Part shown: positions 43,907 through 58,170 of the stretch, in pieces | How the letters are laid out: every line of letters starts with the position of its first letter | Position numbering within the stretch: the stretch's first letter is position 1 | From: a virus | IMG/VR virus record: IMGVR_UViG_3300032116_014461 | Span: 1 to 64,000 of that record | Direction: 5' to 3' (one strand) | DNA length: 64,000 bases | Notes under the pieces: generated by a model | Database searches by the model: none | The model's input: only the letters and a program-made list of their open reading frames with translations | What the model was told of the DNA's origin: nothing | Program-made: the position numbers and the translations under genes

Positions 43907-44901
43907 ACTAGATCCGATAATGATTTATTGGTGTTTTTGCTTCTGTGTACAGATGTGTTATTTATAGATTGTAATAATGCTTTAGATATACTATCTGTTG
44001 TTAATGAATTTTGTTTAAGCTGTATGTCATCTATATTAAGAATAGGTATAATGGGCATTTGGATATGAGATACATCTTTGTGTGTGACATATGGTATATT
44101 ATGTTGTTTACAATATTTTTCGTACATAACATATTTAGTATATGCATTTAAAGATAAATAACAGTTTAGATTATTAAGAAATCTTATAGAATCCATATGA
44201 TTACAATTATTGAACATAAAAATAACTTTATCATAATTTGTAATTTTTAAGGATTGCTTCATATCAGAATAGAAAGACTCTAATTCTAACTTCTCTTTGT
44301 CTGTAGCAGTAACCAGGATGCATAGAGATACTTCGTCATTAGTTCTAAAGGTTGTTAGGAATGCTTGAATTAGTTTGTGTATAATACCACTTTCCTTAGA
44401 ATATAATCCCATGAATCCAAACTTATACAGATGATCGTATGCGCCTATATTGTATCTTTCTTTATGACACTGATTAAGAATAAGAGGTATATTTTGCTCA
44501 TATACTTCCACATTTGTATTTTTATTTTGAATCTGTTCTTTTACTTTAATGTCGTCTACTAATATCGCAGCATAGTGAGATAGAATGTCTGTATTTGTAT
44601 ATTGAATGTATGGACTAATAAAAGGAATAACAATATTAGGCACATAATGATTGATAGCCAGAAAATCTAAAGGGAGATTTTGTATGATGCCATCTAGGTG
44701 CGTGATATCATCAAGAGACGAAGCTAGTGTTGGTAAAATACTACTGATATCGAATATATCATTTGAATCAACAGGTATATGTTTGGCAATAATATTTAGA
44801 TGCTCTACCTGAGATAGTTCATGCAAATTTCTTAGTGATGCTTGGCCGACATAGTTTGGTTGTTGATATGGACCGAGATATAGTATATTTTTCTTGTTCA
44901 T
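43888..44901 (-). CDS. GT4-like glycosyltransferase, divergent
   Basis: A 337-residue protein opening with ILYLGPYQQPNYVGQASLRN, which fits the N-terminal nucleotide-sugar-fold loop of GT-B enzymes. The middle (KFGFMGLYSKESGIIHKLIQAF) matches the start of the second Rossmann domain of family 4 transferases, and CYLSLNAYTKYVMYEKYC occupies the donor site region, where the usual ExxxxxxxE pair is not obvious. A C-terminal helical tail is present. It starts seven bases after the family-4 transferase gene. Glycosyl transfer is inferred from fold shape and context. Confidence 0.6.
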   Translation of the reverse strand: MNKKNILYLGPYQQPNYVGQASLRNLHELSQVEHLNIIAKHIPVDSNDIFDISSILPTLASSLDDITHLDGIIQNLPLDFLAINHYVPNIVIPFISPYIQYTNTDILSHYAAILVDDIKVKEQIQNKNTNVEVYEQNIPLILNQCHKERYNIGAYDHLYKFGFMGLYSKESGIIHKLIQAFLTTFRTNDEVSLCILVTATDKEKLELESFYSDMKQSLKITNYDKVIFMFNNCNHMDSIRFLNNLNCYLSLNAYTKYVMYEKYCKQHNIPYVTHKDVSHIQMPIIPILNIDDIQLKQNSLTTDSISKALLQSINNTSVHRSKNTNKSLSDLVCKIIQ

Positions 44902-44907
44902 ATTGTA

Positions 44908-46572
44908 TTATTTGTGATCTTTAATATTAGCATATTCTATATAATCATCATTGAACTTGAGAGCATTAACTCTAGCATATTCTGCTTGATTATTATTATC
45001 AATTAGAGTATTAAAATAATCTATCATGTCTTTAGTATTGTAACCAGATATGCTCATACCATTGATAGTAAAGCCATAATCTGCTTGTTTCAACATATCC
45101 AAAACGTTTTTGTCTAGAGTATAGGTATGTTTTAAATATTTATCAAATACAAATTGAATTATATCTATATTAGAAAGGTTGGCGGGTATAGATGCTGTGT
45201 CGATTTTAGATAGAATGTTTGGTGGATCATTCCATTTTGAAACATAATTATTAGATAATTTATCTAGATATGTTTCCCATTTGAGTGCTATGTTATCCCA
45301 GTTGTAATGTTTTTCTGTTAAAGAACGTGTCTTCTTCGACATTTCAGATTTATCTGATGAATGATAGAACTTAACGATATATTCAATTAAGCTGTTATTG
45401 TCGGGATAGGTTCTAATTGCTTGTGTTTCTAGTTCTTTGAAGTAACTAGCAATAGGCACAGGATATGCTTCTAACTTGTTTACCACATCACACATAGCAC
45501 TATAATTAACTGTGGCAATAGGTACTCCACAAGCAGCGGCTTCTACTTGTGGCATACCAAAACCTTCGCAGATAGAATATTGTACATACAAGTCGAAAGT
45601 GTTATAGATTAAAGATAGATCATTCGTAGACACCCCATGAGTTACAGAGGATAGTGCCATACTTTTTTCTAAGCATCTTGGACATACTTTGGTTGGACCA
45701 GTAAAAACATTAGCTTGAATAAAACTACATTTTTTACAAACATATGAAAATAATACTCTGTTAATACATCCATATTCTTTTAAAATTTGAGGCAAGTCCC
45801 AACCAGCGTCAGGATAACTAGTGTGCATATACAAATATATATTATTGCGAATGTCATCACTAATATTTTTATCTTTTAATATATTGCCAATAACATTAAA
45901 GAGTTCCGGAATCAGTTTGCGTTTCTGATTTCTCATAACGGAACCTATAACAAATGCATTTTCTGGCACACCTAAAGCTTTACGTATTCCTGCTTTTTCT
46001 GTTGCAGAATACGGCTTGAAGGTTGTTAGATCCACACCGGGAGAAGCCGTGTCGATATAGTTAACAGAACCAGCGGTTTGTTTTTTTAAAACTTGGGCGC
46101 CCCAGTCCGAATAAGTAAAAATGGCATCCGCAGAAAGGAAGGTGTCGATCCATTCTTCTTGTTGTGGTTCAGAGTCAACTGTGGGCATCAGTACCCAATG
46201 TACAAACTTTCTTAGAGGCGACCATCTTTGATAAGAATTCATCCAGTAGTCTCTAACATCAATAACAACATCTGGCTTAAAATCTAACAGTACTTTTTCA
46301 AATCTCCAGCGACCAAACTGATTATCTGGTCGAGACATATATTCCTTATATCTACCATCTTCGGACTTGACAGCATTGGCATAATATCTCCATTTAATAG
46401 CAGTATCTCTAGGATCATTTACAAAACCATAAGAAGCAAATTCTGCTATTTCGTACTTGTTAGTTCTGTGCAATCTAGACAAAACCTCCTTCGCATAAAC
46501 TCCGAATCCTGAGCTTAAAAAGCTAGCTTCGGAACACATTAATACTTTGAGTTTTCTTTTATCTGTTGCCAT
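44908..46572 (-). CDS. Family 4 (GT-B) glycosyltransferase with inserted zinc ribbon
   Basis: A 554-residue enzyme, longer than most family 4 transferases. The N-terminal Rossmann domain opens with VLMCSEASFLSSGFGVYAKE. The donor-binding site is at 335-350 (CEGFGMPQVEAAACGVP), with Glu336 and Glu344 in the E-x7-E arrangement of GT4. Between the two domains lies a zinc ribbon with Cys279, 282, 297 and 300. The C-terminus adds about 120 mostly helical residues. This is the best-supported transferase of the cluster and the first gene after an intrinsic terminator. Substrate and acceptor are unknown; virion proteins, host surface or DNA are all possible. Confidence 0.85.
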   Translation of the reverse strand: MATDKRKLKVLMCSEASFLSSGFGVYAKEVLSRLHRTNKYEIAEFASYGFVNDPRDTAIKWRYYANAVKSEDGRYKEYMSRPDNQFGRWRFEKVLLDFKPDVVIDVRDYWMNSYQRWSPLRKFVHWVLMPTVDSEPQQEEWIDTFLSADAIFTYSDWGAQVLKKQTAGSVNYIDTASPGVDLTTFKPYSATEKAGIRKALGVPENAFVIGSVMRNQKRKLIPELFNVIGNILKDKNISDDIRNNIYLYMHTSYPDAGWDLPQILKEYGCINRVLFSYVCKKCSFIQANVFTGPTKVCPRCLEKSMALSSVTHGVSTNDLSLIYNTFDLYVQYSICEGFGMPQVEAAACGVPIATVNYSAMCDVVNKLEAYPVPIASYFKELETQAIRTYPDNNSLIEYIVKFYHSSDKSEMSKKTRSLTEKHYNWDNIALKWETYLDKLSNNYVSKWNDPPNILSKIDTASIPANLSNIDIIQFVFDKYLKHTYTLDKNVLDMLKQADYGFTINGMSISGYNTKDMIDYFNTLIDNNNQAEYARVNALKFNDDYIEYANIKDHK

Positions 46573-46576
46573 AATT

Positions 46577-46582
46577 ATTATA
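46577..46582 (-). promoter_or_regulatory. Possible -10 box just ahead of the glycosyltransferase cluster
   Basis: A TATAAT lies only four bases before the ATG of the family-4 transferase gene and just downstream of the SSB terminator. No matching -35 box is seen at 16-18 bases. If it is used, the transcript would be nearly leaderless. It could equally be chance in AT-rich DNA. Confidence 0.2.
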
Positions 46583-46604
46583 GTGTTGATATTGGAAGAG
46601 ATAT

Positions 46605-46630
46605 AAAAAAGGGGGTCGTTTATGACCCCC
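46605..46630 (-). terminator. Intrinsic terminator downstream of ssb
   Basis: Read on the minus strand, a 7-bp perfect GC-rich stem (GGGGGTC/GACCCCC) with a 6-base loop is followed by six T. It lies about 30 bases after the ssb stop and before the glycosyltransferase gene. This is a textbook Rho-independent terminator for minus-strand transcription. Confidence 0.88.
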
Positions 46631-46660
46631 AGTTTTATTCGGTCTTATAAGACTCTACTA

Positions 46661-47038
46661 CTAAAACGCCACAGTTTCCTTGCTGTCGCCCGTCTTAGAT
46701 GTTGCTCTCGATAGCTTTGTAATCTTCGAGAAATTATTTACCCTGACCTTTAGGGTATTGTGCTTAACGCCATCCTTTTCCCAAGAATCATTCCTTAAAG
46801 ATCCTTCGATAAGTACTAGATCACCCTTCTTAAAGGATTCACCAATAACTTCGGCACCAGAATCCCAAGCTTCACAATTGATAAAGGAAGTAATCTTATC
46901 CTTTTCACCGTTATTCTTGGTATATTCACGAGAAGTGGCCACTGTAAAATTGACAACAGATGTTTGCTTGTCTCCACTGCCAACTACTCGTAGTTCTGGA
47001 TCCCTTGCAAGATTACCCTTTAATAGTACAATATTCAT
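46661..47038 (-). CDS. ssb: Single-stranded DNA-binding protein
   Basis: A 125-residue OB-fold protein of bacterial SSB type: MNIVLLKGNLARDPELR opening, VNFTVATSR, FINCEAWDSGAEVIGESFKKGD and LVLIEGSLRNDSW motifs in standard order. It binds and protects single-stranded DNA at the replication fork and presents it to RecA. The C-terminal tail (DSKETVAF) keeps a terminal Phe and some acidity but lacks the usual DDDIPF tip, so partner contacts may differ. It forms its own transcription unit between a consensus promoter and an intrinsic terminator, consistent with a need for high expression. Confidence 0.95.
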   Translation of the reverse strand: MNIVLLKGNLARDPELRVVGSGDKQTSVVNFTVATSREYTKNNGEKDKITSFINCEAWDSGAEVIGESFKKGDLVLIEGSLRNDSWEKDGVKHNTLKVRVNNFSKITKLSRATSKTGDSKETVAF

Positions 47039-47088
47039 AACTCATAATCTCCATAAAAATGTTTAAAATACCAAACCGTCACAGTACT

Positions 47089-47116
47089 ATTATATGAATC
47101 GGGCCTGTGATGTCAA
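47089..47116 (-). promoter_or_regulatory. Consensus sigma70 promoter for ssb
   Basis: A perfect TTGACA (47111-47116) and perfect TATAAT (47089-47094) are separated by 16 bases on the minus strand, about 50 bases before the ssb start. The -35 box overlaps the TGA stop of the upstream polymerase gene. A perfect match in both boxes ahead of a gene with its own terminator makes this convincing. It implies use of host RNA polymerase. Confidence 0.78.
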
Positions 47117-48735
47117 GTCATAGGCTCAAAACACTTTGATACAACCAGACCGTCTCCTGTTTTCGTTTTATCGCCAAAAAACACAAGAATATTTCCTTCA
47201 AACAAATGATGCTTATATTCTGCTAGTTGCTCTGGAAACATTATTAACGAATCTAGTATGCCCACAGAATCTTCGATACTAATAAATGCCATTTCTTGAC
47301 CTGGGTTTTTTCCTCTTTTTGTTTTAACAAAATTTATAGAAGAAATTTCACCAGCAATAATAACATTTTTATTATATGCGGATGTTTTGAAGGTTTTGCA
47401 GTCTGTGTTCGTCATGGTCGTGTCGTATGTATCAAGTTTAGAACAAGACAACGCAACTCCAAGTAGTCCGTTTTCAGAATCAGAAATCCATTCTATTTTA
47501 TCTGTTAAAGAAAATGGGGGGTGCTGCATGGTATGTATTAGGTTATTGATTGCTTCTTTTCTCTTAGTTGTTAACTTAAAAGTAGCAACACCATCTAATA
47601 GCATTTGTTCTAAGTTTTTATAGTTCTTTGTTAATCTAAGTTCATTAAGTTTTTCTAATTCCTTAGCTGTTAGTGCTGACAGAATATCTAACTCAAACAA
47701 CATTTCTGTGCGGCTCTTTTTGCTAAAATCTACAGCACCACACGATATTAATGATTTGGCTGCGGCAGAGTTAATATTTAATAAAATGTCTATAAGTATA
47801 TCATACCACGATAAATTATACAAATCCTTACCATCACAGATATCTAATAGTTTCTTATAGACAGAAGCCCCAACCGCTTTGATATCAGTTAGACCAAAAT
47901 ATATCTCTTTTTCTTTGATGTAAAAGAATTCATTAAGATTGCGTAGATCAGGTATTCTTATGTTGATACCCATACTATTAGCATTTCTAACTAGCTCTTT
48001 AATTTCTTGTTGTGGATCTATCTTGTCTTTTGCATATCTTAAATATGAGGCAAAAAATATCCTAGGAAAATGTGCTTTTGCATATGCTGAGAGATACGCA
48101 TTAATAGCATAGGAAACGGCATGACTAGCGTTAAACAAATATCTTTGACTCTTTTCAATCCATCCGAATATCTGTTCTGCTTCGTCTGTGGTAACTATGC
48201 TAAGTTTTGCACAACCGTCGATAAATTGCTTTTTAACCTTGGCCATCTTATCGGCCTGCTTTTTACCAATAGCTTTTCTAAGTTCGTCAGCGTCTTGAAG
48301 ATTAAATCCGGCAATACCTTTAGCGATACCCATCGCCTGTTCTTGATAAACCATCTCTCCATAAGTTTCTTTAAGAATAGGCTCTAGTGCAGGATGAAAG
48401 TAATCTATGGATTCTTGTCCGTTTTTTCTATCTATGTAATGATTAGAGACGCTTTTACCATCTCTATAAGCTTCCAAACATCCGGGCCTAAGAATAGAAA
48501 TCAGAGCCGATAACTGTTCTATATTTTCAGGCTTTAGTTTTTTAGCCATAGACTGTCCTAGTCTTGATTCTAACTGGAAACAGCCTTTAGTATTACCTTC
48601 TGATATTAACTCCCATGTTCTAGAACACGCTAGATTAATATTAGTAATATCTGGATTGAAAATAATTTTTGGAGTGGCAGATTGTTCCGATATAGGGAAC
48701 TTGCAACCGCAATCAAATGTAAAATAACTTGACAT
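47113..48735 (-). CDS. dnaE: DNA polymerase III alpha subunit, C-terminal half (fingers to OB fold)
   Basis: A 540-residue protein matching the second half of bacterial replicative polymerase DnaE. Motifs in order are FQLES (53-57), ILRPG (81-85), YQEQ (130-133), RKAIGKK (153-159) and FNASHAVSYA (201-210) of the fingers, then the helix-hairpin-helix/duplex-binding region and a C-terminal OB-fold stretch (KRGKNPGQEMAFISIEDSVG). The PHP and palm domains with catalytic Asp residues are missing here and lie in the gene at 49614-51446. It must therefore pair with that protein to form a working polymerase. A short N-terminal extension (FDCGCKFP) is unlike standard DnaE. It starts five bases after the exonuclease stop without a ribosome site. 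Confidence 0.92.
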   Translation of the reverse strand: MSSYFTFDCGCKFPISEQSATPKIIFNPDITNINLACSRTWELISEGNTKGCFQLESRLGQSMAKKLKPENIEQLSALISILRPGCLEAYRDGKSVSNHYIDRKNGQESIDYFHPALEPILKETYGEMVYQEQAMGIAKGIAGFNLQDADELRKAIGKKQADKMAKVKKQFIDGCAKLSIVTTDEAEQIFGWIEKSQRYLFNASHAVSYAINAYLSAYAKAHFPRIFFASYLRYAKDKIDPQQEIKELVRNANSMGINIRIPDLRNLNEFFYIKEKEIYFGLTDIKAVGASVYKKLLDICDGKDLYNLSWYDILIDILLNINSAAAKSLISCGAVDFSKKSRTEMLFELDILSALTAKELEKLNELRLTKNYKNLEQMLLDGVATFKLTTKRKEAINNLIHTMQHPPFSLTDKIEWISDSENGLLGVALSCSKLDTYDTTMTNTDCKTFKTSAYNKNVIIAGEISSINFVKTKRGKNPGQEMAFISIEDSVGILDSLIMFPEQLAEYKHHLFEGNILVFFGDKTKTGDGLVVSKCFEPMT

Positions 48736-48740
48736 ACAAA

Positions 48741-49436
48741 TTAGTTGGTGGCGAATGATCCTCTAAATTTAACCTTCTTACCCAAGTTCCTGTGTAGTCT
48801 TAAGAACCTAATCAGAATATCGGCAGTATCCCTAACGTCCTTTAGAGCGTCGTGAGCGCCTTCCTTAGATATGCCTAAATAATCTCTTAAATTATCCAAA
48901 GTATAGTTCTTGAGTTCGTTATTGGATTCAAACCAATAAAAAATAACATTCATAACATCCACAACATCTCTTGGATAAAATAATGAAGATCTACCTTCTT
49001 TATTTAGATTGTTGTATTTCTTACTTAGTCTTTCGATAATACGAAGATCAAACCTATTGATATTGTATCCAGCCGCAATAGGAGCGGTGAAACAAGATCT
49101 CTTGTCTGATCTAATATGATACTTTTCGAGATAAGACAAGAATAACTTCCAAGACTGTTGCTGTGGAGTATAAGAATGCCACATTTTTAATATGTCATCT
49201 TGTGAACAGCCACGAACCTTAGAATGAAATTCTAGGATATCAGAATCAGAATATGTATATGTAGAGTCGGCCTCAAGTTTCTCGGGCTTGATACTAACAT
49301 TAAATTCTGAGTCTGGTATAATTTCTAGTCTTAATGGATCGACAATAACCGCCGCTATTTGAACTGGACTGCATGAATCCGGATCGGACCCATCGGTTTC
49401 CATATCAAACACACAAAGTTTTTGAAAATTAGGCAT
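48741..49436 (-). CDS. dnaQ: DnaQ-like 3'-5' proofreading exonuclease (epsilon-type)
   Basis: A 231-residue DEDDh exonuclease: Exo I FDMETDG (Asp11, Glu13), Exo II YNINRFDLRI (Asp130), Exo III HDALKDVRDTAD (His195, Asp200). It removes mismatched 3' nucleotides and would act as the proofreading subunit of the split DnaE, since it is encoded between its two halves. A clamp-binding motif is not obvious. It starts inside the small gene at 49429-49611 by an 8-base overlap, and its stop is five bases from the DnaE C-half, so the three products are probably made together. Confidence 0.9.
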   Translation of the reverse strand: MPNFQKLCVFDMETDGSDPDSCSPVQIAAVIVDPLRLEIIPDSEFNVSIKPEKLEADSTYTYSDSDILEFHSKVRGCSQDDILKMWHSYTPQQQSWKLFLSYLEKYHIRSDKRSCFTAPIAAGYNINRFDLRIIERLSKKYNNLNKEGRSSLFYPRDVVDVMNVIFYWFESNNELKNYTLDNLRDYLGISKEGAHDALKDVRDTADILIRFLRLHRNLGKKVKFRGSFATN

Positions 49437-49611
49437 TTACTTGTACCGTTGTATCCTCTGTAAAAAATGACTTAACTGACGAATTATTTACTTCTTGGGC
49501 ATTGATAGACTTGCAGCAACTTACTCTTACTGTTTCTATCTTAACATATTCCATTCCATTGACAAAAAATCTATCATTAACACCAAGTTCATTAAATTTT
49601 TTATCTACCAT
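49429..49611 (-). CDS. Small conserved-type phage protein between polymerase halves
   Basis: A 60-residue protein with GGAG eight bases before its ATG. It starts two bases after the stop of the DnaE N-half and overlaps the exonuclease start. The pattern (F-x-EL-x2-ND-x-FFVNG-x-EYVKI ... INAQEV ... F-x-EDTTVQV) is a small beta-barrel-like domain of the kind seen in many phage hypothetical proteins. No function is known. The tight packing suggests it is co-produced with the polymerase parts and might be an assembly factor, but nothing proves this. Confidence 0.7.
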   Translation of the reverse strand: MVDKKFNELGVNDRFFVNGMEYVKIETVRVSCCKSINAQEVNNSSVKSFFTEDTTVQVNA

Positions 49612-49613
49612 GA

Positions 49614-51446
49614 TTATTCTCCATTTTTAAGAAAGTCAGATATCGTCATAATTTTATCTAACATGGCCACGCCAAGGATATCAAACTTAATCCCACCTAT
49701 CGCTTCTAGGTCTTGCATTTCCATACCAGCAATAGTTTGTTTATTTTTTGTGTCATAAACCATAGGACACATATCTGATAATCCTTGACTACTGATTAGT
49801 ACACCAGCCGCATGTTTCGATTGATTAGACTTAGTTCCTTCTAGACGAATGGCTTGTTCAAACCTTTTGGCTAGAGGACCGGCCAACTCTCCGTCTTCAT
49901 TAATATAGCACCACTCCTTGAGTTTGTCAACATTGTTTTCTAAGGCCCAGCGAATTATAGATGATTCGCCAGTATCATCTTTCATTTCTTGGAGTTCGTC
50001 GGCAATTTTTGCTTCGTCGGGAATGTGTTTTGTAATACGATTCATTTCTTCGAAACTAATATTATCATATGCTCTAAGTACGTCTTTTAAGGCACCTCTA
50101 CCTTTCATAGTATTGAATGTGATCATTTGAGACACCTTATCTCTGCCGTACTTATTCTTAATATAGTCGATTACTTGTTCTCGCTTATTAATCGGTACGT
50201 CTATATCAATATCTGGCATACTTATTCTATCTTTAGTATTTCTTCCAGCATTATAGAATCGTTCAAACAATAGATTATATTTAAGCGGATCTATACTGGT
50301 AATTCCAATAAGATAAGATACGAGACAACCAGCAGCACTACCTCTACCGGGACCGGGTAACCACCCCTCATTTCTTACATACTGTACAATATCTTGCACT
50401 ATTAAAAAGTAGCTAGATAAACCAGCACCCTGTAGAACGTCTAGTTCAGACTTAATTCTGTCTACATATCTCTGCTGCTCTTCTGTACTAATACTATTTT
50501 GTATTTTTTCTTTCCATCCGTTCCTACACAATTGTCTTAGGTATTCATCAGGATTATATCCTTTGGGACAATCAAAAGATGGCAAATGTGGCTTATCTAA
50601 GATGTCGTATTCTTCGCACATTTCTGCAACTATATTAGTGTTCTCTATTTCTGTTTCATTGTGTAATGCAGATATTTCTTCCTGGGAAGGTATGTGGTAA
50701 TTATCAGACAAAAAGAAACAATCCATACCAATCGATTCTTGGTTTTGTATTTTGCTATTAATTTTACTCAAAGTGGTTTTGAGATTATTGCATAGTAGAA
50801 TACGCTGATCCATAGCATCTTCTTTTTCTGCATAATGAGCGTCAGGAGTGCATATAACCTTTGTATTGGTAGATTTGCCCAAATCTCTAATAGCACCAGT
50901 AAGACTAGCTTGTAATGCTATGTTGTCTTGGTCCATGAGTTGGGCTTCTAGAAATACATTTTCCTTGCCAAAAATATCTTTAATATTATGGATAAAGTTT
51001 GTACCTAGGTTCATATAATCTTTTTTAATTGCATTATTCTCAGTAATAATGTCAGCTAACGTAGAACCTAGATGTCCTACTACAGCAATCATATTGCCAG
51101 TATCAACAATAGACCTTAGAGTTTCTATATCGAGTCTTGGCTTGTGATAAAAGTATTCTGGCTTATTAGATTCAGAAACTATGCGTATTAAATTCTTCCA
51201 TCCCTTATAGTTTTTTGCAAGTACTATAAAGTGCGAGAGTTTGCGATTAGCCGGTTCTTGTATAGACGGATTTTGATCACAGATATATAATTCACAACCC
51301 AATATAGGCTTAATGCCTTTCTTGGTCATGTCACTATAGAACTTGACCGCACCCGCAATATTACCATGATCGGTTAACGCACAAGACTTTGCTTCAATCT
51401 TGGTGCATCTGTTTGCAATCTGTTCGGTTTTACTTAGTCCATCCAA
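49614..51446 (-). CDS. dnaE: DNA polymerase III alpha subunit, N-terminal half (PHP and palm)
   Basis: A 610-residue frame with the first half of DnaE: PHP-domain motifs (ALTDHGNIAGAVKFY, GCELYI, TPDAHY), then the palm with GPGRGSAAG (365-373), the catalytic PDIDIDV (411-417) and the third catalytic Asp in KFDILG (587-592). It stops right after the palm; fingers and OB fold are in 47113-48735. This frame has only a TTG near its beginning with no ribosome site, and lacks the PHP HxH motif. That motif (PLHVHS) is found just upstream in another frame behind a strong ribosome site and ends at TAG, so the true start is probably 51510 with a +1 shift. Confidence 0.92.
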   Translation of the reverse strand: MDGLSKTEQIANRCTKIEAKSCALTDHGNIAGAVKFYSDMTKKGIKPILGCELYICDQNPSIQEPANRKLSHFIVLAKNYKGWKNLIRIVSESNKPEYFYHKPRLDIETLRSIVDTGNMIAVVGHLGSTLADIITENNAIKKDYMNLGTNFIHNIKDIFGKENVFLEAQLMDQDNIALQASLTGAIRDLGKSTNTKVICTPDAHYAEKEDAMDQRILLCNNLKTTLSKINSKIQNQESIGMDCFFLSDNYHIPSQEEISALHNETEIENTNIVAEMCEEYDILDKPHLPSFDCPKGYNPDEYLRQLCRNGWKEKIQNSISTEEQQRYVDRIKSELDVLQGAGLSSYFLIVQDIVQYVRNEGWLPGPGRGSAAGCLVSYLIGITSIDPLKYNLLFERFYNAGRNTKDRISMPDIDIDVPINKREQVIDYIKNKYGRDKVSQMITFNTMKGRGALKDVLRAYDNISFEEMNRITKHIPDEAKIADELQEMKDDTGESSIIRWALENNVDKLKEWCYINEDGELAGPLAKRFEQAIRLEGTKSNQSKHAAGVLISSQGLSDMCPMVYDTKNKQTIAGMEMQDLEAIGGIKFDILGVAMLDKIMTISDFLKNGE

Positions 51447-51465
51447 TAGAGAATAGTGTGATTCC

Positions 51466-51510
51466 CTAAGAATGGACGTGTAAAGGAATATATTTCCTAT
51501 TCACGCCCAT
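51466..51510 (-). other. Frame-0 leader of split dnaE: ribosome site, HxH motif and UAG
   Basis: On the minus strand an AAGGAG (51519-51524) lies eight bases before ATG 51510. Fourteen codons follow (MGVNRKYIPLHVHS), then TAG. The PLHVHS segment is the first PHP metal motif of DnaE. Skipping one T at TCT-TAG-G joins it to ...RESHYSLLDGLSK of the downstream frame, giving a full-length N-terminus of 631 residues. See the finding for alternatives such as mutation or sequence error. Confidence 0.75.
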
Positions 51511-51525
51511 CTATTTGTCTCCTTA

Positions 51526-52569
51526 TTAAGTTGTGCTTCCTGGAGCTTTATATTGTCCAAATGCATGGTTCTTGTTCTTATACTGATTAGTTACAGTATT
51601 AATACCGTAAAGTTCTATTTCGTGTTTAATTTGTTCACATTTAGTCATTGCCGTGCCGGGACTACAAGCCTGACCATCTCTATATTCTATTAGAGGTTGT
51701 ACATGGGTGTTGTCGAATGTGGTTTTGCCAAAATGACATAACTTATTGCACATCCAACTTTTGTTTAACTTGGGGCGTTTTGCCTTCTTAATGATTTCAA
51801 ATTTTTGTCGCAACATATTCTCAGTTTCGGCTAAGTCTTTTTTATCAAAACAGATAGAAAACGGACCACCGTCATTGATGAAGTATATAGAAAAAATAAT
51901 ATGATCTATCTGAGGATATAGGTGACTAATAGCATAGTGATATATTCTTAGCTGAGGATCTCTTTCTAGTTTTTCTTGTGTTTTTTCTTCGCCAGTAGCC
52001 CAGTCTAATCGTCTGCCGGTCTTCCAGTCGATCACTTCTATCGTATTATCGTTGATGAGCGTGATCAAGTCAATAGTCCCTTTTAGTGCAAGATTGCCAG
52101 AAATCTTACCATCTGCTGTATCATATTCATACGCAGACCACGGTTTCTTAATCTCAAAATCAAAGTGTTGTTCTGGACAGAGAATATTTCTTTTTCTTGG
52201 GTCAAACATACCATCATTAAACTCTATGGCTTTGTAGACCCAATTATGACAATCCTTATAGTCTTTTAGTGACCACTTATGGTGAGGACTATGTGTGGAG
52301 TAATAATTGTATACTTTTTCAATAATAGTATTTAGTGAATAATTATTTATATCCAGTTCGCCAACCACATCGTCTATAATAGTAGTTTGATTGTCTTGTT
52401 GTGCTTTTTTAATAACTGCTAAGATTTCTAGTACTTTATGAGTAATAGTACCTTTATCAGCCTTTTGTCCAGATGGCGACCTCCAGCCAAGCACATATTC
52501 TAAATAATATTGTTGCTCACACATAGAGTGTGTGTTGAAGCTAGAAGATCTAAAATAAGTAATAATCAT
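51526..52569 (-). CDS. RecB/Cas4-like PD-(D/E)XK nuclease
   Basis: A 347-residue nuclease of the PD-(D/E)XK superfamily. His44 in GTITHKVLE, Asp167 in GTIDLI and Asp181/Lys183 in EVIDWKTG form the RecB-type active site. A C-terminal Cys group (CNKLCHFG and nearby Cys) could hold a metal or iron-sulfur cluster as in Cas4/AddB-type enzymes, but the full four-Cys pattern is not certain. The likely role is DNA end processing in recombination or replication. It overlaps the dNMP kinase gene by four bases and ends just before the ribosome site of the polymerase N-half. Confidence 0.85.
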   Translation of the reverse strand: MIITYFRSSSFNTHSMCEQQYYLEYVLGWRSPSGQKADKGTITHKVLEILAVIKKAQQDNQTTIIDDVVGELDINNYSLNTIIEKVYNYYSTHSPHHKWSLKDYKDCHNWVYKAIEFNDGMFDPRKRNILCPEQHFDFEIKKPWSAYEYDTADGKISGNLALKGTIDLITLINDNTIEVIDWKTGRRLDWATGEEKTQEKLERDPQLRIYHYAISHLYPQIDHIIFSIYFINDGGPFSICFDKKDLAETENMLRQKFEIIKKAKRPKLNKSWMCNKLCHFGKTTFDNTHVQPLIEYRDGQACSPGTAMTKCEQIKHEIELYGINTVTNQYKNKNHAFGQYKAPGSTT

Positions 52570-53291
52570 TTATTGCCCGAGTATAGTTTAAGAATATTTT
52601 GTAGTTCAACACACTGATCATAGATGCTCATATTATCATTTTCGATTATATGACTAAAGTTTTGCCAATCGTATCGTTCCTTATCCAAGATAATTTCACT
52701 AGTATGTTCCGAATTATCATACTTGCGTGTTAGTCTAATAACTACACCTTTATACTTTTTAATAGCATCAACTTCATTCGGAAATCTACAATCTGTGATA
52801 ATAGCGACATGTGGTTTTTCTTTGTCTATTTTCTTCAATGTTGCCTCGGCCCAAACATTGGTCTTAAGTTTTCTAAATAGATCGGTGCCTATGAGTTGCA
52901 TAGCATCTCTAGCAGTTAGTTGTTTACCTTCCCACTCTAGGTCTGTTAATTGATTTTTTTCTTCATCTGACCCATAGCATTGATTGTATGTCATACCTAA
53001 TATGTCCATACAAATATTTTGTTTAAGAATATCAGCAAAATTATAGATTTTGATAACTGGATCTAAAATTTGAAAAGCTTTTTGTATATTCCAGTCTGTA
53101 GTTGAGCGACTGCAAGGATCAAAAACCCCCTTATAATTATCATCACCGCATAAGTCAGAAATTTCTATTTGGCCTTTCCAATTAATCCACGCTTTGGCAG
53201 CAACTCCTGATTCGACCATCATAAGCGAATAAATAAAATTACCGCTCGTAGACTTGCCTGATTGCTTTTTGCCCGATATGCCGATAATCAT
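52566..53291 (-). CDS. Deoxynucleoside monophosphate kinase-like P-loop protein
   Basis: A 241-residue P-loop kinase with Walker A GKKQSGKST near the N-terminus. YNFADILKQ, a central R-x-A-MQLIGTD-x-FR segment and VAIITDCRFPNEVDAI fit phage dNMP kinases of the T4 gene 1 type. These phosphorylate deoxynucleoside monophosphates for DNA synthesis. It sits between primase and the RecB-like nuclease genes, and ribonucleotide reductase lies further upstream in the same strand block, so nucleotide supply is a coherent theme. The exact substrate range cannot be read. Confidence 0.8.
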   Translation of the reverse strand: MIIGISGKKQSGKSTSGNFIYSLMMVESGVAAKAWINWKGQIEISDLCGDDNYKGVFDPCSRSTTDWNIQKAFQILDPVIKIYNFADILKQNICMDILGMTYNQCYGSDEEKNQLTDLEWEGKQLTARDAMQLIGTDLFRKLKTNVWAEATLKKIDKEKPHVAIITDCRFPNEVDAIKKYKGVVIRLTRKYDNSEHTSEIILDKERYDWQNFSHIIENDNMSIYDQCVELQNILKLYSGNK

Positions 53292-53303
53292 ATTGTATCT
53301 ATC

Positions 53304-54464
53304 CTATATTATATTTAGTTTTTTAATCTCTTCTATAGACATGGATGCTATGTCATTAGCCGGTATATCTATATGAGTGACATTATACGTTTTCTTACAC
53401 TTCGTATAAATTTTTTCTCTAGCCTGATGCCCCGCTTCATCATTATCCATTATTGTTATAATATCCATAGCGCCAGAACAATCAACAATCATTTTTTGAC
53501 GATCTGTAAATGTAGTACCAAAGATCGCCACAGCGTTATGGATACCAGCTTCCTCAAGCCTCCATACGTTACCGGGACTTTCTACTAAAATAACAGTATT
53601 GTTATGTGTTTTAATGTGTTGTTTAGCGGCCCAGATATTGTATACGTTATCTCCTGATTTAAATCCTGAACTATGTTTCCACTTGGAGTATTTCCAAGAC
53701 TCTGCTTCATTAGGACAATGATGCCTTGGATCATGGTGCGCCTTACATTTGGAGCATTTCTCAAATAGACTACGACCAGTACAACCAACTATATATTCGT
53801 TATTATCGTCAAAAATAGGTACTACTGCACGATTATACATCTCTTTAGTATCGTCATAGCAATCACCAACATAATATTTAGATAATATCGCCTTGCTAAA
53901 ACCTCTACCGAGAAAATATTCAGAAGGTACAGATATCTTAGACAACAGATAGTCTTTAGAAATTTTAAGTTTATCCTTATCAGAAGATTCTGTAATATAT
54001 CTAACGGTATTTACAAAATCATTTTTGTCTTTAACTTTGGCATCTATAACCGATAGACTATTAATATCTATCTTGTTTCCTAGGAACTGTTGAATAAACT
54101 GAATAGCCTCATTAAACGAACACGTTTTATCTCCGTTATTTTGCCAATTATATTTCCTATGAGATAAACATCCTCTAATAAATCCTATAATAGAAGACTT
54201 AAATACATCTTGACAGTTGTGTGTACGACACTTCCAGTTTCCTCTATAGGAATCTCCAATATGGTATAGATTACACGCACCGGTATTGTCTCCGCCATGT
54301 ATTGGACAAGACATAGTGGCCATCTTATCATATAGTTTATAGTCTATATGTAGTACGTCCAATAGTTCTTCTATTCTGTCACAAACAGCATCACTAATTG
54401 CTTTTAGATGCTGCTGATTATACGAAGGGGATTTCGGTTTCATGAGAGCCGTCTGATTCGTCAT
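53304..54464 (-). CDS. dnaG: DnaG-type DNA primase
   Basis: A 386-residue primase. An N-terminal CHC2-type zinc site (Cys53, His56, Cys79, Cys84) precedes the catalytic core, and the TOPRIM domain shows LVESPGN (about 293-299) and DNDEAG (340-345). A second metal-like group (CSKC at 237-240 with a downstream HHC) is inserted before TOPRIM. The C-terminal helicase-interaction domain of bacterial DnaG appears to be missing, so the protein is shorter. The start at 54464 has AAGGA upstream and lies inside the end of the helicase gene (47-base overlap), coupling the two products. Confidence 0.88.
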   Translation of the reverse strand: MTNQTALMKPKSPSYNQQHLKAISDAVCDRIEELLDVLHIDYKLYDKMATMSCPIHGGDNTGACNLYHIGDSYRGNWKCRTHNCQDVFKSSIIGFIRGCLSHRKYNWQNNGDKTCSFNEAIQFIQQFLGNKIDINSLSVIDAKVKDKNDFVNTVRYITESSDKDKLKISKDYLLSKISVPSEYFLGRGFSKAILSKYYVGDCYDDTKEMYNRAVVPIFDDNNEYIVGCTGRSLFEKCSKCKAHHDPRHHCPNEAESWKYSKWKHSSGFKSGDNVYNIWAAKQHIKTHNNTVILVESPGNVWRLEEAGIHNAVAIFGTTFTDRQKMIVDCSGAMDIITIMDNDEAGHQAREKIYTKCKKTYNVTHIDIPANDIASMSIEEIKKLNII

Positions 54465-55890
54465 CTACTACAAATCCTTCTTTCTTGGTAGAAACATTGT
54501 TCATAATCTCTAGTCTGGTTTTACCTTCTACTATCTTGGCACACCAGCCTTTCATATAGCAGTTGATATAGTCGTTGTCGTCTAATCCTCCGCCGTGTCT
54601 ACTAATAAGTGGCACTAATTTTCTATTACCGTTAGCGGCACCATCTTCTGCTATCTCTTCATCGGACTTGCGCTTAAATATAGTAAAATTACTACATAGC
54701 CAGATGATTCTATCAGATCCGCTTGCAGAATCGGTACTTTCTTTAGTTATGCCATCTCTATTTAGCTGTATGAAGGCCACTATTGGAACCTTGTATCTGA
54801 CTGCAAAGTTGTGTAAACTGGTCATCATGAAGCCTAGAACTTGATATTCCTTAAGATCCTGACTAATACCAGCACTATCCATAAGCTTTAAATAGTCATA
54901 GAATATTACGCATTCTTTAGCCGTACCATCTTCATTTAATCCTACATCCTTGACCAGCCACCTTCTCATAATAGCCAACTGATCCTCAAACGGCTTGCCT
55001 GCGATACTCTTATGATAAATCTTCATGCTCTTTAGTTTTTCAACCGCTGTCATGATTTTATTCTTTTGATCTGCTGATTCAGCAAATTTACCGGTTTCAA
55101 TAGAGTTCATATCTACTTCGCTCATCATAGCTAATAGTCTATGGATATGATCTTCTCTATTCATTTCGGTATCCATATTTAAAATAGGTATACCTAGAGC
55201 AGCTATGTTTTTACCCATATTATCGGACATTAGGGTTTTACCAACTTTTGGTCTAGCACCAATCACATTAATAGTGCCTCTTCTTAAGCCACCCCCAATA
55301 GCCTGATCGTATATGGGAAACCCCGTTGGAATACCAACTTGATCTACTTTGTTTTCTTCTAGTTGTTTGATATAATCATCAATAGATGAAGAAATCTGCT
55401 CTGGTCCGCTTTCTGCATCATTAAGTAATGAACTAAAATTAAAGATACTATCTTCGGCTATACCCACAATAGACGATATAGATTCATTACCCGTAACTTC
55501 TAATATTTTGTTTTGCGTATTTTCTAACTGTTTACGCAATAGACGGGCTATTTCTAGTTTGCGTATCTTGGCCGCAAATTTTCTAACATTATCTAGATTG
55601 ACAGGAAAATCTATAATAGCTTTAAGATGCTGTGCTTCTTCTTTCTTGTTCAGAATATGGCTTATATCCAATTCTTGAGCAGCAGAGTATATCGATGCAA
55701 CATCCAATGATTGTTTGTTGTCTTTTTCACAGATATGCTTAATGCATTTGTATAAGACCGCATTGCTATCTACGGTAAAAGAAGACTCTTGGAGTATATC
55801 TACAACATCCAAAAACGCATCTTCGCCATATCTACATATACCAGCTAAAACTGCCCTTTCGGCAGAAGGATCGCATAAAATATTTGGCAT
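54418..55890 (-). CDS. dnaB: Replicative DNA helicase, DnaB family
   Basis: A protein of about 490 residues. I chose the ATG at 55890 because AGGGG precedes it; an upstream ATG at 55914 would add eight residues but overlaps the previous gene. The N-terminal domain begins CDPSAERAVLAGICRYG, typical of DnaB. The C-terminal RecA-like motor has Walker A GARPKVGKT (about 211-219), then NMDTEM and VIFYDYLKLMD. A late SRHGG segment resembles the end of the DnaB core. It unwinds DNA at the fork and recruits the primase encoded immediately downstream. Confidence 0.92.
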   Translation of the reverse strand: MPNILCDPSAERAVLAGICRYGEDAFLDVVDILQESSFTVDSNAVLYKCIKHICEKDNKQSLDVASIYSAAQELDISHILNKKEEAQHLKAIIDFPVNLDNVRKFAAKIRKLEIARLLRKQLENTQNKILEVTGNESISSIVGIAEDSIFNFSSLLNDAESGPEQISSSIDDYIKQLEENKVDQVGIPTGFPIYDQAIGGGLRRGTINVIGARPKVGKTLMSDNMGKNIAALGIPILNMDTEMNREDHIHRLLAMMSEVDMNSIETGKFAESADQKNKIMTAVEKLKSMKIYHKSIAGKPFEDQLAIMRRWLVKDVGLNEDGTAKECVIFYDYLKLMDSAGISQDLKEYQVLGFMMTSLHNFAVRYKVPIVAFIQLNRDGITKESTDSASGSDRIIWLCSNFTIFKRKSDEEIAEDGAANGNRKLVPLISRHGGGLDDNDYINCYMKGWCAKIVEGKTRLEIMNNVSTKKEGFVVDDESDGSHETEIPFV

Positions 55891-55892
55891 TC

Positions 55893-56282
55893 TTACCCCT
55901 GAGAAATTGAGCAATTATTGCATTTGTATCGTGACGGATCGTAGACGAGTCCAGGGTTAACCTGTTCAGACCTACCGCAGACTCTGCATTTTACTGTGAT
56001 GGGATCAAAATGTCTAGTCCTAGGTATTGGCGGATTCTTAGACAGTTTCTTATCTATCGCAGCATCGTCCTTAAACATATACATTTCTTGCATAGTCAAA
56101 AACTTATTGGTGCTTTGTGGCTGCTCCGGCTCTTTTTTCTTTTTTGTTTTTCTGGCTTTTGTGGTCTTTTTAGGCTTTTCTGTACCACCATCATCGCTAT
56201 CTTCTTTAGGCAGAAGTGCTTGTAGTACGGATATAATATCTTTAATCTTTTGTGGGTCGTTTAGTAGTTCTTTAGGATCCAT
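55893..56282 (-). CDS. Small zinc-ribbon protein with Lys-rich linker
   Basis: A 129-residue protein. A short N-terminal helical region is followed by a charged Lys-rich linker (about 35-55: KPKKTTKARKTKKKKEPEQP). The C-terminal zinc ribbon has CRVCG and CNNC pairs spaced about 20 residues apart. It precedes the DnaB helicase gene by two bases and follows an unknown gene with an 11-base overlap. A DNA- or helicase-contacting accessory factor is plausible from the basic linker and context; no known family is assigned. Confidence 0.65.
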   Translation of the reverse strand: MDPKELLNDPQKIKDIISVLQALLPKEDSDDGGTEKPKKTTKARKTKKKKEPEQPQSTNKFLTMQEMYMFKDDAAIDKKLSKNPPIPRTRHFDPITVKCRVCGRSEQVNPGLVYDPSRYKCNNCSISQG

Positions 56283-56757
56283 GTTTCACCTTTGTTTTAT
56301 GAACAGACACTAATATATCGGATAGATTTTTGATTCCATTAGCTATATATGATAATCTATCCATACGCTGCTTTGCATATTTCTTTATAGAGTTGAGATT
56401 ACTTGCTCTTTCATTATGCTTAATAGCCTGCATGGATTTTTCTATATAGCCATATCCTTTATAGTTATTGATTTCATCAGCTATTACTTCTTTGATAGTT
56501 TCTTCTGCCCAGTTGTGCCTAGCAGTTTCTCTGTTGGATGTTCTTTGTACATGCAAAGAGAATTGGGCTAATCTCAGAGAAATTTGAATACAGTCTTCTG
56601 GTGATAGTTTTTCTATCTGCGATCTATCCATATTAAGATAACCATTCAATTCATCAGAGGATAGCGACCCATTATATTTGGGAAGTCCAATAGACTGTTC
56701 ATATTCATCTAGGATTGAATCCCATTTTTCTAGTTCTTCTTTGGCTGTTTTATGCAT
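56272..56757 (-). CDS. Unknown helical protein near replication genes
   Basis: About 161 residues starting at MHKTAKEELE (56757), which has AGGAA upstream. A longer frame to 56793 would overlap the previous gene by 44 bases. Long amphipathic helices dominate, with repeated charged residues (EELEKWDSILDEYE, IKKYAKQRMDRLS). No motif is recognised. Its place between a nuclease and the zinc-ribbon/helicase genes suggests a replication-related or helicase-loading role, but there is no direct evidence. Confidence 0.6.
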   Translation of the reverse strand: MHKTAKEELEKWDSILDEYEQSIGLPKYNGSLSSDELNGYLNMDRSQIEKLSPEDCIQISLRLAQFSLHVQRTSNRETARHNWAEETIKEVIADEINNYKGYGYIEKSMQAIKHNERASNLNSIKKYAKQRMDRLSYIANGIKNLSDILVSVHKTKVKHGS

Positions 56758-57154
56758 TGCTAATAAGTTCCTTCCACTCGGTTGTTGTATCAAAAGGTAG
56801 TGCTATATAAGATATTCCATTATTGACACACCAATTTTGCTTATCTTCGTCTCTTTTTTTACTCTTAACGAAACCCATTACATTCTGATGATAAAATTGT
56901 ACAAACTTATAATGCTGTTCACCATGAACCTCAATACATTTTTTAATAAGTGGTAAATAAAAATCTAGGTATAAAGTCTCGCTGCGTCTAACCGGAATTG
57001 GAACTTCTTCTAATACCTGTAGGGTTGGATATATTTCATGTATCAAGGATCTGGCCAGTAGATGTAAATCTGACTTGTTTTGCAATCTGCTATTAGATAT
57101 ACAACCAGTAATAGACCAAGAAACTTTATTATTGTCTAGGTCTTTAATAATCAT
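56750..57154 (-). CDS. Vsr-like / DUF559-type nuclease, small
   Basis: A 134-residue protein with a compact PD-(D/E)XK-like core: LYLDFYLPLIKKCIEVHGEQ then HYKFVQFYH, SKKRDEDKQNWC and ISYIALPFD. The IEVHGEQHY motif with a following D..K pair is the signature of very-short-patch-like endonucleases. It overlaps RecA by four bases, so it is coupled to recombination. It could be a repair nuclease rather than a mobile element, since it lacks the DNA-binding module of the gene at 39298-40092. Confidence 0.65.
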   Translation of the reverse strand: MIIKDLDNNKVSWSITGCISNSRLQNKSDLHLLARSLIHEIYPTLQVLEEVPIPVRRSETLYLDFYLPLIKKCIEVHGEQHYKFVQFYHQNVMGFVKSKKRDEDKQNWCVNNGISYIALPFDTTTEWKELISNA

Positions 57155-58170
57155 GTTTTAATGCCCATAGTATCTTTAACAGATTTGACCAGATTATCAT
57201 ACGCAGCAGAATTCTCTAATAGATACGCTCTTACCTTTTCTACTCCCTGGAATTTAGGACTATCTTTTTCGGATGTTAGCGTGTACCAAGCACCACCCTT
57301 ATTAATAATACCTATATCTGATGCTATATTGATAATTTCTGTATATTTATCTATACCTTGGCCATATCTAATATAACTGGTAGTTGTAGCGCCCGGAGGT
57401 CCCAATGCAGAACACACCACTTGCCACTCTACTTCCTGTCCTATTTGCGTACCATCTGCCCCAGTTGTCCACGGTTTAAAAGTTTTGGCTCGGAGCTTGA
57501 TGTCAGTTTGATAGGCGATTGCCTGACCACTCTTTTCCTTAAACTCTGCACCATAACCAGTTGGATTGCCCATTAAGTGAGTAATACCAATAACAATATT
57601 CTTATTGACCGGAATAACGTTGGCAACTTTACGACAAAACTTAGCTAATAACTTAGCCCCGTCTGCTCTTTGCATCTTGTCCATATCACTTGTAATTTCT
57701 GCTTCTGTACATAGTGCAGAATACGAGTCTATGATGAGTACGCATCCGGGTTCTTGATTAATAATTTTTTCAGCTATTTGTAGATATTCTTCTGCGTGTA
57801 ATATTTTACCCTGCTGACTACCTATTACATGAAATCTATTTAGATCCAATCCCTTGATACCTTCTAGGTCACGCTTTTTAATTCTACCTTCAATATTTAG
57901 GTAATACACTTCTCTAGGTGCCTTAAGATTGCCTTGGTATTCTGGCTTCTGTGCCGTAGCAGCAAAGTCCAGTGATGTAACAGTTTTACCACATTTAGGT
58001 TGTCCGGTTAGAACTACGAAACTACCCTCTGGCACACCACCGCTCAATATCATATCTAGAGACGGACTAACCGGTATAACTACTACTTTTCTATCAACGA
58101 TAGAATTACCGGATAAAATTATATCATCGCCAAAATCTTTTTTGACTTCTGTTTTTATACTACTACTCAT
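57151..58170 (-). CDS. recA: RecA-like recombinase
   Basis: A 339-residue recombinase with Walker A GQPKCGKT (56-63) and Walker B CVLIIDSYSAL (about 143-153). SLDMILSGGVPEGSF opens the core in RecA/UvsX style. The loop region YGAEFKEKSGQAIAYQTDIK corresponds to the DNA-binding L2 neighbourhood. It forms filaments on single-stranded DNA and promotes strand exchange, working with SSB and the nucleases of this block. The C-terminal region is short, as in phage RecA relatives. The next gene overlaps by four bases. Confidence 0.92.
   Translation of the reverse strand: MSSSIKTEVKKDFGDDIILSGNSIVDRKVVVIPVSPSLDMILSGGVPEGSFVVLTGQPKCGKTVTSLDFAATAQKPEYQGNLKAPREVYYLNIEGRIKKRDLEGIKGLDLNRFHVIGSQQGKILHAEEYLQIAEKIINQEPGCVLIIDSYSALCTEAEITSDMDKMQRADGAKLLAKFCRKVANVIPVNKNIVIGITHLMGNPTGYGAEFKEKSGQAIAYQTDIKLRAKTFKPWTTGADGTQIGQEVEWQVVCSALGPPGATTTSYIRYGQGIDKYTEIINIASDIGIINKGGAWYTLTSEKDSPKFQGVEKVRAYLLENSAAYDNLVKSVKDTMGIKT

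Follow-up and report, generated by a model that had tools for sequence, protein, structure and literature searches.

A short insert that opens with a stop codon in phage dnaE genes is probably crossed by a ribosomal hop

How is a replicative polymerase made from a gene whose reading frame closes directly after the first metal-binding motif of its PHP domain? The question is raised by the dnaE locus of the window, by which we mean the whole 64,000-nucleotide stretch of viral DNA analyzed here (positions 1 to 64,000 of the IMG/VR record IMGVR_UViG_3300032116_014461, itself 65,128 bases long). A preliminary description of this DNA had reported an HVHS motif followed by an in-frame UAG with the polymerase continuing out of frame, an AAGGAG (51524-51519) placed 8 nt before ATG 51510, from which 14 codons run to the TAG, and a long frame that by itself offers only a TTG start; all three observations hold in the window. 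Past the TAG the minus strand continues in another frame with HYSLLDGLSK and the remainder of the PHP/NTPase half. That polymerase frame (49614-51446, minus strand) has the TTG as its first listed start, reads RESHYSLLDGLSK across the leader region, and contains no ATG between its preceding stop and HYSLLDG. DnaE as a whole spans 47113-51510 on the minus strand as two ORFs, the PHP and NTPase half and a finger/HHH half (47113-48735), between which lie a 60-aa ORF and a DnaQ-like exonuclease (48741-49436). The features of the locus, in the order in which a ribosome would meet them, are as follows.

51519..51524, minus strand: Shine-Dalgarno-like AAGGAG, 8 nt upstream of the ATG at 51510-51508
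51469..51510, minus strand: leader ORF MGVNRKYIPLHVHS, 14 codons, ending at the TAG at 51466-51468
51502..51510, minus strand: 5' arm of the 5' stem-loop, AUGGGCGUG, which includes the start codon; supported by covariation
51472..51480, minus strand: 3' arm of the 5' stem-loop, CACGUCCAU, which encodes H-V-H; supported by covariation
51470..51477, minus strand: 5' arm of the predicted long take-off hairpin, GUCCAUUC; returned by RNAalifold unaided
51469..51471, minus strand: Ser codon UCU of HVHS, the putative take-off codon
51466..51468, minus strand: stop codon UAG, adjoining the take-off codon on its 3' side
51459..51468, minus strand: 10-nt insert, which uninterrupted relatives lack; putative coding gap plus landing triplet
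51461..51468, minus strand: 5' arm of the inner hairpin, UAGGGAAU, whose first bases are the stop codon; from the minimum free energy (MFE) fold, with 85.5% of cells paired in one fixed register
51459..51461, minus strand: UCA, the putative landing triplet, after which decoding would resume at CAC 51458-51456
49614..51458, minus strand: remaining DnaE N-terminal half (PHP and NTPase domains), from the putative resume codon to the stop
51447..51454, minus strand: 3' arm of the inner hairpin, AUUCUCUA; from the MFE fold and pairing across the family
51437..51444, minus strand: 3' arm of the predicted long take-off hairpin, GGAUGGAC; from RNAalifold and synonymous constraint

Seen in a single record, such a break would look like a sequence error or a dead gene, and a recent indel or error had indeed been put forward as the simple alternative. 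The same arrangement is present in a second virus record (L001; 67,490 bases), which is 99.99% identical to the window over 11,830 bases without a gap, and in a relative with 79.7% DNA identity (L002), where the stop is identical and the insert is again 10 nt. Searches recovered 47 distinct versions of the element at 105 loci in 79 virus records, including the window's own (the record count being read from the locus list), and in all 47 the insert sits at the same codon, right after the first metal-binding motif, and starts with a stop. Most of these scans used patterns in which a TRR triplet, CAY followed by Ser, and some of the post-insert codon sequence were required, and only two retrievals were free of that bias. 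The first, made with the downstream peptide only, gave 20 interrupted and 60 uninterrupted genes among the best 80 of 152 loci; the second gave 7 interrupted and 73 uninterrupted among the best 80 of 422. All 27 interruptions from these two retrievals (on 25 contigs) start with a stop, which, together with the near-identical and the 79.7% identical relatives, excludes both chance and sequence error. With 79 records, covariation and purifying selection on both sides of the insert, the claim of a recent indel or error falls, and we regard error or gene death as extremely improbable.

The element rows are related by descent, and their counts are thus not independent. Excluded from them were ten matches outside dnaE (L085, L089, L091, L094, L096, L109, L111, L123, L130 and L134), two matches of two pattern scans dropped before counting (L144 and L147), and 16 further matches without a confirmed dnaE start, ten of which are one unrelated recurring sequence and four of which are not dnaE. 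L328 and L344 carry the element and are omitted from the 47 because a contig end cuts their dnaE; the insert reading omitted L149, which has a run of unknown bases, and one contig-edge locus, and the uninterrupted sets do not include the 80 genome-contig loci.

Across the 47 versions the codon before the stop is UCU in 29, UCC in 17 and UCG in one, and the stop itself is UAA in 27, UAG in 18 and UGA in two. The UGA after HVHS occurs in L141 and L142, so that all three stops are represented in the family. The insert measures 6 nt in one row, 7 in one, 8 in three, 9 in 11, 10 in 14, 11 in 15 and 12 in two, and the downstream frame relative to the leader is consequently 0 in 14 rows, +1 in 15 and +2 in 18. 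Whatever the length of the insert, the codon after it is the homologue of the codon that follows HVHS in uninterrupted genes (His, Met or Glu). No residue separates HxHx from the xYSL-type residues in any of the 133 uninterrupted loci of the two bias-free retrievals.

These observations bear on the programmed recoding at UCU-UAG suggested in the preliminary description. Recoding, as distinct from a pseudogene or an error, is upheld by the family, and the suggested comparison of relatives finds the stop kept in 47 of 47 elements; the +1 shift, by contrast, is the frame of only 15 of 47. Judged from the window alone, where the next frame is indeed +1, a programmed +1 frameshift would serve; however, 32 of the 47 versions would require another shift (none in 14, +2 in 18), so that the shift would have to vary among 0, +1 and +2 with the insert length of each row. 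Moreover, a +1 shift would add R-E-S between HVHS and HYSLLDG, and none of the 133 uninterrupted loci has such residues. We therefore consider a +1 frameshift highly unlikely. Stop codon readthrough was rejected as frame 0 is available in only 14 of 47 rows, as was a phage suppressor tRNA, ARAGORN having found no tRNA in the window.

A constant resume codon despite a variable gap fits a hop, and we propose that the insert is most likely crossed by programmed translational bypassing over 6-12 nt, a reading drawn from comparative sequence evidence. Translation would start at AUG 51510 and yield MGVNRKYIPLHVHS, leaving peptidyl-tRNA-Ser on UCU and the A site occupied by the stop, where a hairpin starting at the stop codon would hinder termination. 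The tRNA would then leave UCU and re-pair at UCA 10 nt downstream, and with decoding resumed at CAC UAU UCU the usual PHP sequence, HVHS-HYSLLDGLSK, would result. The last triplet of the insert is UCU in 16 rows, UCA in 12, ACU in nine, GCU in five, UCC in two, and UCG, GCC and UUU in one each. It is a UCN codon in 31 of 47, and in the remaining 16 (ACU, GCU, GCC or UUU) pairing at two of three positions must suffice for a hop; under codon-anticodon rules two of the three pairs, or a wobble pair, would remain in these loosely matched rows. Counting against the hop are the identity of take-off and landing codons in only 13 of 47 versions and the position of the landing triplet in or beside a hairpin loop. 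Two minimal versions have identical codons, namely L148:3757-3831, with the 6-nt insert UCU-UAA-UCU and a presumed GUG start, and L143:4861-4936, with the 7-nt insert UCG-UAAA-UCG and a presumed UUG start; neither has a clear hairpin at the site.

The RNA around the insert is strongly structured. In a 5' stem-loop (AUGGACGUG/CACGUCCAU) the start region pairs with the HVH codons, 98.1% of cells being paired and four of the nine pairs displaying double changes. Together with the inner hairpin it has 26 double-change cells against 7.1 in shuffles, with none of 500 shuffles as high, and the whole structure was equaled by none of 500 shuffles on four of five measures and by 11 of 500 on the fifth. 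Compensatory changes in the 5' stem-loop convert AUG/CAU to GUG/CAC in L148 and AUGGACG/CGUCCAU to AUGGCAG/CUGCCAU in L140. RNAalifold, unaided, further predicts a long hairpin (GUCCAUUC/GGAUGGAC) that spans the insert with its stop and a portion of the Ser codon; columns 75 and 35 of this hairpin are altered in step in L140. In the long and inner stems together 93.5% of cells are paired; a single measure, further pair types, fails to stand above shuffles (107/500). The pair 44-66 is missing in 12 of 47 rows when a fixed register is imposed, mostly because the stem starts one base earlier; the site hairpin is weak or absent in L143 and L148, and L139 is aligned and paired in the structure alignment.

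The strand GUCCAU is common to the 5' stem-loop and the long take-off hairpin, and the two folds are therefore mutually exclusive. The 5' stem-loop has a mean energy of -17.6 kcal/mol, and columns 31-81, folded with the long hairpin, one of -18.8 kcal/mol; the RNA is accordingly modeled as bistable. Over the 42 nt up to the Ser codon the mean is -18.0 kcal/mol in the 47 elements versus -2.8 in 84 uninterrupted relatives, with disjoint ranges, and synonymous recodings as stable as the natural sequences were rare both for the leader (24/9400) and for the site (68/9400). There are two copies of the motif AUGG(A/G)C in 51436-51510 on the minus strand, one at the start codon and a second, out-of-frame one in the DGL codons at the element's 3' end; either is able to pair with GUCCAU. 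We posit that GUCCAU would pair either with the start region or with the downstream GGAUGGAC, that the initiating ribosome would open the 5' stem-loop and so allow the long hairpin to form, and that after the hop the 5' stem-loop might refold behind the ribosome and favor forward movement. The hop, this order of steps and any regulatory role are all deduced from such patterns.

Selection at the protein level extends over both sides of the insert. Over the 47 elements pN/pS is 0.216 at leader codons 7-10 and 0.133 at codons 7-14, compared to 0.825 at codons 2-6; codons 12-14 are partly fixed by the scan patterns, whereas codons 7-10 are fixed by none. Codon 10 is Leu in all 47, by means of five different codons. 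This purifying selection on leader codons implies a single fused protein, and the leader and the post-insert part look, from their sequences, like parts of one translated product. On the 3' side, the codons in the arm of the long hairpin are TTG in 40, GAT in 43 and GGA in 39 of 44 thinned elements, as against 54, 62 and 37, respectively, of 82 uninterrupted relatives. The enrichment of TTG, the stop after the leader in 47 of 47 and the start codon inside the 5' stem-loop would also suit termination and re-initiation, in which MGVNRKYIPLHVHS is a leader peptide, the polymerase restarts at TTG 51446 without its first metal motif, and the hairpins act as a translational attenuator. Yet the TTG position is CTG in three and CTT in one of the 44, and in 46 of 47 rows the long hairpin joins the third TTG base to the Ser codon. 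On this account the stretch from the insert to the TTG would go untranslated, but H/M, Y/F, S and L are retained there in 27 of 27 bias-free rows, with synonymous variation. Given also the protein-level selection on the leader, re-initiation appears quite improbable.

Another alternative is editing of the mRNA, whereby a nuclease and a ligase cut 6-12 nt out of the hairpin in the manner of a very small intron. It makes no demand on the triplet preceding the resume codon, in keeping with ACU and GCU, and the hairpins do mark the gap; it has, however, no need for a stop after Ser in every row or for UCN as the last triplet in 31 of 47, and none of the Rfam families matches. We know of no natural bacterial introns of 6-12 nt and judge excision to be unlikely. 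Group I or II introns and other known structured RNAs were rejected, their covariance models being without a match; at gathering score no Rfam family was found in 44000-58000 of the window or in L137, L108, L072 and L098.

The predicted hop finds its closest parallel in T4 gene 60, whose 50-nt bypass is described as employing a take-off codon with a stop, a take-off stem-loop, a 5' stem-loop and a landing codon (PMC5009743, PMC11194080), the 5' stem-loop being thought to act as a motor by zipping up behind the ribosome (PMC5009743, PMC11194080). As in gene 60, the dnaE element has a take-off codon followed by a stop (47/47), a stem-loop holding both (weak or absent in L143 and L148), a 5' stem-loop upstream, a landing triplet that immediately precedes the resume codon, and two protein parts separated by a non-coding gap with resumption in any frame (14, 15 and 18 of 47). 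Unlike gene 60, the gap is only 6-12 nt and variable, the gene is DnaE, and there are dozens of natural versions with a patchy spread; the start codon lies within the 5' stem-loop, the 5' and take-off stems share a strand, the landing triplet is at the hairpin loop and the landing codon is often only partly matched. The nascent-peptide signal of gene 60 (KKYK, 25-30 residues before take-off) has no room in the 13-14-codon leaders of the 47 rows as aligned, which counts against the hop; in gene 60 this signal is a stimulator of bypassing and not its definition. UCU-UAA-UCU, the shortest version, is arranged like the synthetic "stop hops" of Weiss et al. 1987 (as cited in PMC5009743), but is natural and preceded by a 5' stem-loop; a 2016 review describes no natural in-frame stop hop as known (PMC5009743). 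The bypass elements of Magnusiomyces mitochondria are also short non-coding blocks within coding sequence with imperfectly matched take-off and landing sites, and seem, according to the same review, to be independent of mRNA context (PMC5009743). They differ from the dnaE element in its bacterial-type translation, its one fixed site per genome and its strong structure. RF2 and antizyme +1 frameshifting resemble it in that a stop occupies the A site after a sense codon, but the fixed +1 shift is absent here.

If the proposal is correct, the element represents a rare natural family of programmed bypassing over distances shorter than that of T4. Counterparts of gene 60, perhaps with shorter distances, have "long been presumed", and a regulatory use of bypassing would broaden interest in it, in the words of the 2016 review (PMC5009743). 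The element is absent among the matches listed in literature searches on bypassing or hopping, alone or with DNA polymerase or phage genomes, and on frameshifting with PHP or phage polymerase, both covering titles and abstract starts, mostly from outside subscription journals. Nature has supplied 47 versions graded in gap length, stop codon, codon match and hairpin strength, which, along with insert-free relatives, makes the question directly testable in reporters.

We then considered the element in its genomic setting. An AGGAG/GGAGG core lies within 22 nt upstream in 34 of 47 elements, and at least AGGA, GGAG or AAGG in all 47; a similar loose set of motifs is sparse in this genome, preceding nine of 23 sampled window genes within 16 nt, in a test whose motif sets and spans differ from those used for the elements. 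An ATGA overlap joins the dnaE start to the stop of the preceding gene in 67 of 88 uninterrupted relatives, as opposed to none of the 47 elements, four of which are undetermined. The module thus appears to take the place of translational coupling at dnaE, and this replacement suggests a regulatory role; control of the polymerase level, as raised in the preliminary description, is possible. More broadly, though perhaps a little short of an even chance, the element could be a horizontally spreading translational switch of about 90 nt that replaces coupling and gates synthesis of the replicative polymerase via a short hop, and would then constitute a natural family of short, regulated bypasses and of natural stop hops, the first of its kind. 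The parts of the proposed switch would be its own ribosome site, a start codon locked in the 5' stem-loop, a bistable take-off hairpin and the 6-12 nt gap.

The distribution of the element is patchy, with signs of loss and of transfer between phages. A tree of the polymerase half with 72 rows (31 with the element) requires at least 13 gains or losses, 10 of them forced by well-supported branches, and a larger one with 121 rows (39 with the element) has 23, of which 11 are forced, with L140 and L108 on long branches; the element rows in each are those with enough polymerase sequence. L076 and L077 cluster with the element rows L043 and L072 at 100/100, the next relative, L095, in which the element is present, being joined at only 85/69. 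The extended leader is retained in both; precisely the insert is absent, and the pairings are weakened, with part of the 5' stem remaining in L076 (-12.5 kcal/mol over 60 nt). Model R1 scores these two at 42 bits; of the 54 loci searched, 45 element loci score 57-95 and the remaining uninterrupted ones no more than 28. Based on the tree and the extended leader we read their state as a recent loss. Identical 42-nt leaders, including the otherwise free codons 4-6, occur in L026/L098/L118 and in L072/L074 although their polymerases are just 66-71% identical, which points to transfer between phages. In the window R1 found only the dnaE copy, its antisense (E 0.0058) and three matches with E of at least 0.093; among 20 whole virus records, 18 have one sense copy (one also an antisense match) and none was found in L035 and L068, whose dnaE is uninterrupted.

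Judged by ORF lengths, the gene layout around dnaE is similar in L068 and L013, which have no insert, and in L072, which has one; the ORFs of the DnaE region in these three are in the same order with matching lengths. A homing endonuclease beside the site was rejected on account of this sameness of layout with and without the insert. In L137:3442-6435 an ORF with a LAGLIDADG motif in another frame interrupts dnaE, and nearby PDDEXK and glycosyltransferase genes also bear LAGLIDADG domains; protection of the site against an endonuclease is therefore conceivable. Four loci (L319, L327, L340 and L348) have an insertion of about 1.2 kb past DnaE residue 369, near GPGRGSAAG, and all four also carry the 5' element.

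Comparison with named phages by tblastn matched 1352 records, all at less than 60% identity, the best among the matches listed being 34%; for the element itself the sole match there was 34 bases in a structural gene (E 0.9). The closest two of 80 loci kept from a genome collection lie on contigs binned as Flavobacteriales (L149) and Lokiarchaeota (L150), which are perhaps binned virus contigs, and no insert is present in either as far as they are readable. Elsewhere in the window, region 1-38222 contains several very long ORFs of 1266-2291 aa; of four proteins scanned from it, two matched the PHROG family phrog_15511, of unknown function, and one also matched a kinase family.
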